The notes under the pieces were generated by a model. It made no database searches. It had not been told where the DNA came from and saw nothing but the letters and a program-made list of their open reading frames with translations. This document shows positions 31,193 to 32,025 of a DNA stretch of 51,123 bases, piece by piece. This DNA is from Bacteroidota bacterium (lineage in GTDB: Bacteria; Bacteroidota; Bacteroidia; Chitinophagales; Chitinophagaceae). Each line of letters begins with the position of its first letter. Position 1 is the first letter of the stretch. The DNA lies in the NCBI GenBank assembly GCA_029558715.1, contig JAKQEA010000073.1:1-51123 (forward strand), in the 5' to 3' direction. The translations under genes and the position numbers were made by a program.

Positions 31193-31200
31193 CAAAAATA
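31193..31200 (-). promoter_or_regulatory. -7 element for the lipoprotein gene
   Basis: TATTTTTG on the minus strand matches TAnnTTTG. A start near 31189 would give a leader of about 54 bases. It lies just after the terminator of the RNA gene (31205-31227); a clear -33 element was not found. Confidence 0.4.
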
Positions 31201-31204
31201 AAAA

Positions 31205-31227
31205 AGCCCCTGTTAAAAACAGAGGCT
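31205..31227 (-). terminator. Rho-independent terminator of the tRNA-like RNA gene
   Basis: On the minus strand AGCCTCTGTT pairs with AACAGGGGCT (one G-U) around TTT, followed by five T's, A and five more T's. It begins 19 bases after the CCA of the RNA at 31247-31421, so the RNA has its own end. Confidence 0.8.
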
Positions 31228-31246: not shown

Positions 31247-31421
31247 TGGCTGTAGGGGGAGGGATCGAACCTCCACGGAGCAGTTAGTTGTAGCACAAAG
31301 TTCAGTGGTCGACCCTGGTCGCTCCTGCATTGCTGCAAAAGCGGCTCTATGCTATATTTATCCTGTTATCTCCACCCCCGAGACAAGAGGGCATGTCTGC
31401 CAAAAATTTCATCACCCCACA
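31247..31421 (-). ncRNA. Unidentified structured RNA with tRNA-like ends
   Basis: The 3' end on the minus strand is a perfect T-arm, GGAGG-TTCGATC-CCTCC (31274-31258), then CCCTACA, G and CCA (31257-31247). TGTGGGG at 31421-31415 pairs with CCCTACA with a single G-U, giving a seven-pair acceptor stem about 175 bases apart. Behind it come TG, a D-arm-like loop with GG, and CCCTC-TTGTCTC-GGGGG (31391-31375), which looks like an anticodon arm reading GUC, though U follows the anticodon where a purine is expected. About 100 bases lie between that arm and the T-arm. They hold a ten-pair hairpin with a GCAA tetraloop (31320-31343). An alternative stem AGACA/TGTCT (31398-31381) excludes the GUC arm. 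It could be a reduced tmRNA, a tRNA with a giant variable arm or a new tRNA-like RNA. No tag peptide or tmRNA core was seen. Confidence 0.65.
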
Positions 31422-31444
31422 GTGTTAATAAGAACTTGATGAGA

Positions 31445-31477
31445 CAAATGTAGGGTGATTTGGCAATATGTTCCAAA
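31445..31477 (-). promoter_or_regulatory. Promoter of the tRNA-like RNA gene
   Basis: On the minus strand TTTG (31477-31474) and TACATTTG (31452-31445) are 21 bp apart and match both Bacteroidota promoter elements exactly. Transcription would start near 31440, about 20 bases before the acceptor stem. Beyond it, 31478-31560 is very A/T-rich leader sequence of the Lrp gene. Confidence 0.65.
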
Positions 31478-31560: not shown

Positions 31561-32025
31561 ATGGCCTCAAAATTAAATCTGGACAAACTCGATCTGCAGA
31601 TCATCCATCATATGATGGAGAATGCGGAGATATCATATGCAGACCTTGGTAAAAAATTATTTGTGTCGGGAGCTACGATTCATGTACGTATCAAAAAATT
31701 ACAGGAGGCCGGAGTGGTTAAAGGTACGAGGTTAAAGGCAGACCTCAGGCAACTGGGATACGATGTTATTGCATTCATAGGAATATACCTGAAGGAAAGC
31801 TCTCTTTATGATACGGTAGCAAAAGACCTGCAGAAAATTCCGGAGATAGTCCGATTGAATTATACTACCGGTAACTACAGCATGTTTGCAGAAATTGTTT
31901 GCAAGGACATTACACAGCTTAGATTTGTATTGCACGACCAGTTGCAGAAGATAAAAGGAATCGAACGTACAGAAACTTTTATTTCGCTGGAGGAGAGTTT
32001 CAGCAGAAATGTGAAAGTAATATAA
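31561..32025 (+). CDS. Lrp/AsnC family transcriptional regulator
   Basis: 154 residues. The N-terminal winged helix reads KLDLQIIHHMMENAEISYADLGKKL, then SGATIHVRIKKLQEAGVV (recognition helix, about residues 38-55). The C-terminal part is the RAM/ACT-like ligand domain (FIGIYLKESSLYDTVAKDL, GNYSMFAEIVCKD). Lrp-type proteins bind amino acids and act as octameric regulators. It is divergent from the RNA gene and lies 38 bases before a flippase gene, so it could regulate either; targets are unknown. Confidence 0.93.
   Translation: MASKLNLDKLDLQIIHHMMENAEISYADLGKKLFVSGATIHVRIKKLQEAGVVKGTRLKADLRQLGYDVIAFIGIYLKESSLYDTVAKDLQKIPEIVRLNYTTGNYSMFAEIVCKDITQLRFVLHDQLQKIKGIERTETFISLEESFSRNVKVI

Follow-up and report, generated by a model that had tools for sequence, protein, structure and literature searches.

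The window (the whole 51,123-nt stretch of DNA that was analyzed) encodes on its minus strand a tRNA-like RNA of 173 nt (31249..31421, from U1 to C74), which is probably a non-decoding tRNA specialized for the tRNA-dependent synthesis of asparagine. The fold of this RNA, its conserved marks, its gene neighborhood and its co-occurrence with GatB were observed, and from them we infer that it is charged, amidated and relieved of its product. If so, an amino acid would be made by a tRNA that is dedicated to this task and does not decode, and phages would carry a metabolic RNA. This would also explain the asparagine supply of many Bacteroidota without E. coli-type AsnB and the retention of GatCAB beside AsnRS and GlnRS.

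Architecture of the RNA Gene

Judged by its sequence, the RNA body is a type II tRNA of the tRNA-Leu type whose variable arm is tipped with a large domain. In order, it has the acceptor stem, UG, a D-stem of 3 bp that carries a Leu-type D-loop, then G26, an anticodon-like stem of 5 bp that closes a loop of 7 nt, the variable arm and the T-arm. The initial annotation had described a T-arm, a seven-pair acceptor stem, a D-arm-like loop and a GUC arm on this strand, and all four are present. The acceptor stem, defined by comparison and covariation, pairs a 5′ strand with invariant U1 and G2 (31415..31421) to a 3′ strand (31251..31257) that is followed by G73 (31250) and C74 (31249). The D-arm (31393..31412; same evidence) has G18, G19 and an A at 20a. 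Alignment and covariation define the anticodon-like arm CCCUC UUGUCUC GGGGG (31375..31391), with GUC at 31384-31382 and C38 at 31380, as well as the T-arm GGAGG UUCGAUC CCUCC (31258..31274). The variable arm begins and ends as in tRNA-Leu. The insert at its tip comprises two stems identified by covariation, V1 (GGAG at 31370..31373 with CUCC at 31277..31280) and V2 (CAG at 31363..31365 with 31281..31283), an internal loop in which the motif GAUAAA (31357..31362), conserved in the alignment, faces CUAA (31287-31284), and a variable domain (31288..31356) that is much shorter in the short members of the family. By comparison and predicted fold, the latter domain contains a stem (31354-31345 with 31300-31291), a GCAA hairpin (31343-31320) and the motif GGUCGACCAC (31314-31305). 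In the long forms, both chromosomal and phage, this last motif is conserved as GGGUYGACCAC or GGGGUWGACCACC.

Compared with four tRNA-Leu of the window genome, the RNA shares the seven-pair acceptor stem, UG, the 3-bp D-stem, the Leu-type D-loop and the canonical T-arm, and its variable arm likewise sits between U44 and GU. Unlike tRNA-Leu it has G73 instead of A73, U1-A72 and a GUC loop with U37 (NNNUCNC, which holds no Leu anticodon), and insertions in the variable arm and sometimes the D-loop bring it to 91–244 nt (77 nt in one case). The 128 distinct bacterial members measure 111–244 nt, apart from a 77-nt variant (L105), and phage members go down to 91 nt. Some members have an extra D-loop hairpin: a far longer D-loop insert at L018:1501-1744(-) reads as a long hairpin, and others have short GCGNAAGC-type hairpins at this place.

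Taken alone, the window sequence folds moderately better than its shuffles (z -1.92; 11 of 200 shuffles as good), and therefore the case for the RNA rests on comparison. The single-sequence prediction includes the acceptor, variable and T arms, and the D-stem is absent from it. It also includes the ten-pair GCAA hairpin of the initial annotation, but that region varies among members and is missing in the short ones.

The signals proposed for an independent gene were found where the initial annotation had placed them. The Bacteroidota-type promoter (31445..31477) consists of TTTG (31477-31474) and TACATTTG (31452-31445); of 126 members, 70 have TAnnTTTG no more than 130 nt upstream, whereas random stretches of 130 nt from the loci contain it in 7.1% of cases. 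The leader contains a boxA-like GTTCTT (31430..31435), a sequence that 55 of 126 members have in the 70 nt before the RNA (background 2.5%). The intrinsic terminator reads at 31199..31226.

The RNA may be matured like a tRNA with addition of CCA, and the encoded 3′ end is consistent with this. It consists of the discriminator and a C, rarely CA, as in 22 canonical tRNAs of the window genome that were compared. A CCA end is encoded in the window (31249-31247), as had been claimed, but it does not extend to the family, which ends at C74 and encodes CA at 75-76 in 9 of 128 distinct members.

Family Conservation and Covariation

Homologs of the window RNA were found by blastn in 25 of 58 relatives. 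In an alignment of 18 sequences, pairing was complete (100% of cells) in the six core helices and reached 80.8% in a seventh helix further inside. The covariance model R1 gave 130 matches from 97 loci, corresponding to 128 distinct sequences. In this set 99.4% of 3441 cells pair (97.6–100% for each of the six core helices), both partners have changed in 20 of the 27 pairs and all six core helices covary. None of 500 shuffles reached the observed paired fraction, number of double changes or covariation score, and 10 of 500 reached the number of pair types. The members form a cloverleaf with GG in the D-loop and UUCRA in the T-loop (UUCGA among the members listed). The GUC loop and the conserved GAC of the variable-arm motif could form a candidate pairing, and both sides hardly vary. 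A short reading frame from an AUG before the CCCUC stem to TAG or TAA, which is found in many members, was set aside since, judged by eye, it changes at all codon positions and follows the stem.

In the window, ARAGORN reported no gene and Rfam 15 no match at gathering score. The seven Rfam matches up to E = 10 in the window were all sub-threshold and all include the terminator region. There is thus no significant match to a known tRNA or tmRNA model, and the absence of a tmRNA tag or core, noted at the outset, held in both searches. Two of the options left by the initial annotation, an insert-bearing tRNA and a novel family of tRNA-like RNAs, both describe what was found, namely a type II tRNA body with a variable-arm domain and covariance-model members across genomes without an Rfam 15 family. 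No description of the RNA was found in the literature searched, a search that left most subscription papers and all bioRxiv preprints outside. For genome annotation this means that short members get called tRNA-Asp and that the long member of the window is missed by ARAGORN.

Identity Elements

Across the 128 distinct bacterial sequences, four marks never change: U1-A72, G2-C71, G73 and C74. Acceptor pairs 4–7 vary by compensation while U1-A72, G2-C71 and G73 stay fixed. The loop consensus is NN-G-U-C-U-C, with U35, C36 and C38 in 128 of 128 members, G34 in 124, U37 in 121 and U33 in 96; a purine at position 37 occurs in one. A fixed U33 and a purine at 37 are features of decoding tRNAs. The Asp-type marks G73, GUC and C38 that had been pointed out in the window are thus family features, and so are U1-A72 and U37, which had been held against a normal tRNA-Asp.

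According to the accessible part of one source, the elements recognized by E. coli AspRS are GUC, G73, G2:C71, C38 and G10 (PMC6523644). U1-A72 is required for the amidation of Asp-tRNA, which G1-C72 and U20a prevent, and G1-C72, strictly conserved in bacterial tRNA-Asp, positions the 3′ end in AspRS, as stated in the consulted sections of PMC9976931. In the RNA, position 20a is an A in 126 of 128 bacterial members (simple parse), G10 is present in 11 of 128, most having A10, and G1-C72 is absent. Like tRNA-Asp, it has G73, G2-C71, G34, U35, C36 and C38, with an intact GUC in 124 of 128 members; unlike tRNA-Asp, it has U1-A72 instead of G1-C72, mostly A10, U37 and a long variable arm. On these marks, the RNA combines most AspRS determinants, without G10 and G1-C72, with the GatCAB mark U1-A72.

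Phage members for the loop statistics were retrieved by the variable-arm motif without the loop, so that the loop was not preselected. Among the 62 stretches found, 42 had an R1 match of at least 76 bits, three were cut at an end and 17 were not counted; in the latter the motif probably occurs by chance. GUC and C38 are present in 34 of 34 distinct members retrieved in this way, and U1-A72 in 33 of 34. Sets retrieved by the loop pattern (named bacterial and IMG/VR phage) were left out of the loop statistics. At their ends, all members have G2-C71 and G73, and U1-A72 is shared by 102 of the 103 named bacterial sequences and by 57 of the 60 from phages.

Position 34 deviates in four loci, L095 (U), L100 and L106 (C) and L105 (A). 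The C34 and A34 members (L100:4001-4116(-), L106:4001-4116(-) and L105:4001-4077(-)), which include the 77-nt form without long variable arm, lie in genus g134, and its three sampled genomes (G434, G649 and G346) gave no GlnRS match. A changed carried amino acid is conceivable for these sequences.

Distribution in Bacteria

Membership was counted at E < 1e-20 with R1, and at most 7 or 11 candidates per genome were scored, which makes the counts lower bounds. R1 members occur in at least 140 of 248 genomes of the order, also in other orders, and in at least 40 of 395 genomes of the phylum sample, in addition to the 77-nt variant of G346. The scores in bacteria are bimodal, with members at 92 bits or more, shorter matches at 59 bits or less and the 77-nt variant at 66. 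The raw tallies of 192 of 248 and 314 of 395 were set aside, since they include weaker, shorter matches that were taken as ordinary type II tRNAs (not checked singly). R1 confirmed 80 of 80 loci listed from named carriers (at least 80), which include, among the matches listed, Chitinophaga, Niabella, Terrimonas, Ferruginibacter, Pedobacter, Mucilaginibacter, Dyadobacter, Spirosoma, Cyclobacterium, Algoriphagus and one Ignavibacteriales MAG. Tandem copies are common, with more than one copy at 23 of the 80 named loci. Plasmids gave no match to the RNA.

AsnC-Type Neighbor

In the window, a gene for an AsnC-type regulator (31561..32025, plus strand), assigned by neighborhood, profile and identity, is divergent from the RNA gene and starts 140 nt from its 5′ end. 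A divergent upstream gene for a regulator of about 155 aa is found in 76 of 97 loci, with its start 97–237 nt from the RNA; the other 21 have no AsnC neighbor within the stretch examined. Among the named loci it was found at 56 of 80, and three more are cut off. The best NCBIfam model for the regulator is AsnC at 161 bits, below its cut-off of 227, followed by a model at 65 bits, and identity to E. coli AsnC is 41% without gaps. Within the genus of the window, the RNA occurs in 19 of 35 genomes and the regulator is whole in 17 of these 19; in the other two (G004 and G020) the RNA is near a contig end on the regulator side. None of the 16 RNA-negative genomes of the genus has an AsnC ortholog, with no match in 15 and one match of 23% in G030. 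In G036, a genome from outside the genus that has AsnA, the regulator is found without the RNA. The arrangement resembles asnC-asnA of E. coli, where asnC is divergent from the adjacent gene and the starts are about 151 nt apart, with the difference that here an RNA gene occupies the place of asnA.

Co-occurrence With GatB and Asparagine Synthetases

In the class part of the phylum sample, GatB is present in all 37 RNA-bearing genomes and in G346 with its 77-nt variant. Three genomes (G316, G424 and G469) have GatB without the RNA, and at least 50 have neither. Outside the class, the three RNA-bearing genomes of family f68 all have GatB, and in other families GatB is usual without the RNA. Joint absence of RNA and GatB is seen in the genus (G023), in the family (G068 and G246) and in family f23 (G281, G394 and G622), and four of these six genomes have E. 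coli-type AsnB.

A targeted set compared 43 RNA-bearing genomes (38 of the class sample, including G346, and five more of the order) with 43 RNA-negative genomes that we chose. GatB was found in 43 of 43 against 10 of 43 (two of these ten at 32–33% identity and one partial), and E. coli-type AsnB (full length, 63–68% identity) in 0 of 43 against 18 of 43, with one more RNA-negative genome at 38% (G328); the genomes are related and not independent tests, Fisher values overstate the significance of this contrast and the RNA-negative group may include false negatives. AsnB-like proteins of RNA-bearing genomes were partial or had 29–45% identity among the matches listed. GlnRS was found in 39 of 43 against 37 of 43 and AsnA in 5 of 43 against 3 of 43. 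Among GlnRS-bearing genomes, GatB is present in 39 of 39 with the RNA and in 4 of 37 without it. The latter four (G173, G238, G424 and G469) are misfits, and the other six RNA-negative genomes with GatB gave no GlnRS match and may therefore need GatCAB for Gln-tRNA. Neither GatB, E. coli-type AsnB nor AsnA was found in 14 RNA-negative genomes (G023, G068, G185, G230, G250, G262, G267, G275, G037, G044, G056, G057, G320 and G328), which are possibly asparagine auxotrophs or use another route.

AsnRS scored over its cut-off in 56 of 58 relatives, including the window genome, and being nearly everywhere among the relatives, it indicates that Asn-tRNA can be made without GatCAB. In 45 of 58 relatives, AsnB-like proteins of putative function passed the TIGR01536 cut-off, most of them about 600–660 aa long. 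The accessible part of the GapMind paper (PMC7311316) has nothing on the asparagine or RNA question.

Proposed Role in Asparagine Synthesis

We propose that the RNA is matured as a tRNA that has a type II body and no decoding role left. AspRS would load it with aspartate by reading G73, G2-C71, GUC and C38, and GatCAB would then read U1-A72 and amidate the RNA-bound aspartate to asparagine. Used on the ribosome, asparagine on a GUC tRNA would misread Asp codons; the Asn-RNA would be kept off the ribosome because the need for U33 and for a purine at 37 is lost and the variable arm is bulky. The asparagine would subsequently be hydrolyzed off the RNA or handed on, which would make the RNA a renewable cofactor of asparagine synthesis in Bacteroidota without E. 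coli-type AsnB. The divergent AsnC-type regulator would control this RNA, which holds the place that asnA has in E. coli. The chances are about even that in a branch of the Bacteroidota an RNA cofactor, namely a tRNA without decoding that acts via GatCAB under AsnC control from the asnA position, has in this way taken over from asparagine synthetase, and that the copies which phages carry beside or within tRNA arrays serve them as auxiliary metabolic RNAs.

The closest known system is tRNA-dependent asparagine synthesis from Asp-tRNA-Asn by GatCAB, as in Deinococcus, Thermus and Bdellovibrio, where, in the part of a survey available to us, GatCAB is kept beside AsnRS and GlnRS while AsnA and AsnB are lacking, a pattern that the RNA-bearing genomes show in part, and U1-A72 is the amidation mark (PMC4206432). 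The same part names Bacteroidetes among the genera with AsnRS, GlnRS and GatCAB without Asn synthetase (PMC4206432). In that system a decoding tRNA-Asn is used with a relaxed or second AspRS, whereas the RNA proposed as substrate here is distinct from it, has GUC in its loop and a body of Leu type, and bears a large domain in the variable arm. With such a GUC-bearing substrate of its own, the route could use the normal AspRS.

Several observations count against this role. Firstly, G10 is rare, G1-C72 is absent and four of 128 members lack G34, and the large variable arm might hinder AspRS. Secondly, four RNA-negative genomes have GatB together with GlnRS, AsnA occurs in 5 of 43 RNA-bearing genomes and 21 of 97 loci are without AsnC neighbor. 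Lastly, there are the AsnB-like proteins in 45 of 58 relatives and the 14 RNA-negative genomes without GatB, E. coli-type AsnB and AsnA.

An RNA charged with aspartate (or asparagine) could instead act as a sensor, with its charging state or its complex with AspRS or AsnC regulating asparagine metabolism and without being a biosynthetic cofactor. The frequent divergent pairing with the AsnC-type regulator and the co-loss of both within the genus are as expected for such a sensor. However, by itself it accounts neither for GatB being retained in the presence of AsnRS and GlnRS nor for the exclusion of E. coli-type AsnB, and AsnC was not found in 181 phage stretches (tblastn, 1e-5), which makes a sensor rather unlikely. 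Also unlikely is a route as in Bdellovibrio, in which a non-discriminating AspRS charges the ordinary tRNA-Asn and GatCAB forms asparagine on it; the RNA would then have another function, and its co-occurrence with GatB would reflect descent. U1-A72 is indeed present in the tRNA-Asn of the RNA-bearing genome G140 (found in the 36% of the chromosome that was examined), and the consulted portion of the survey reports it for the tRNA-Asn of all 18 genera, Bacteroidetes included, of the group with AsnRS, GlnRS and GatCAB and without Asn synthetase (PMC4206432). Yet this route gives no account of the fixed U1-A72, G2-C71, G73 and GUC-C38 in the RNA, nor of the coincidence of RNA and GatB inside a genus, a family and family f23.

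Ribosome-independent aminoacyl transfer from tRNAs is known in general, and an Asp- or Asn-RNA that feeds such a transfer to a peptide, lipid or wall component would keep charging marks and relax decoding marks, as is seen here. We regard a donor function as quite unlikely, since neighbor clusters other than AsnC reach at most 17 of 97 loci each within flanks of 1.5–4 kb, and the AsnC and AsnB pattern points to bulk asparagine.

Occurrence in Phages and tRNA Arrays

In IMG/VR, 91 stretches match the loop-arm pattern, and R1 matches at 66–132 bits in 80 of 80 among the matches listed. Annotated phages gave no match for the window RNA or one short form; one long form was matched by one 636-kb uncultured phage. 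A tRNA scan of 32 IMG/VR phage stretches revealed five with arrays of 19–26 tRNAs (L298, L311, L325, L343 and L363), three of which also have a tmRNA; the remaining stretches have fewer or no tRNAs within the stretch examined. GatB, AsnA and GlnRS were, like AsnC, without a match in the 181 phage stretches, and one AsnB-like match of 30% was obtained there (tblastn, 1e-5). In phages, the RNA may replace host tRNAs, or it may help to supply asparagine.

The position beside tRNA genes in phages and the ARAGORN label tRNA-Asp for the short phage forms and L105 would fit a decoding tRNA, either a spare tRNA-Asp or a mistranslating tRNA that places another amino acid at Asp codons. Against this, the tRNAs of the window genome cover the 20 amino acids, with a tRNA-Asp(GUC) among them, an ordinary tRNA-Asp(GUC) is also present in each of the five largest phage arrays bearing the RNA, and U33 is not kept while U37 is nearly fixed, so that decoding is very unlikely. 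A degenerate tmRNA, an option in the initial annotation, or a pseudogene, suggested by tRNA-like ends with 100 extra bases, has a negligible probability given the conservation and covariation. Like tmRNA, the RNA would be a stable RNA with tRNA-like ends and both occur in some phage arrays, but it has a D-stem, an anticodon-like arm and the architecture of a type II tRNA, and no tag frame or tmRNA core was detected (ARAGORN, Rfam). Moreover, the best tmRNA-model match of the window genome lies elsewhere (G000:C194; 42 bits, cut-off 47), where it runs into a contig end.

The window genome itself contains an array of 11 ARAGORN tRNAs (L157, G000:C14:27686-29091), with a 75-nt tRNA-Leu CAG and a tRNA-Asn with G1-C72 as odd members, and this array is probably mobile.
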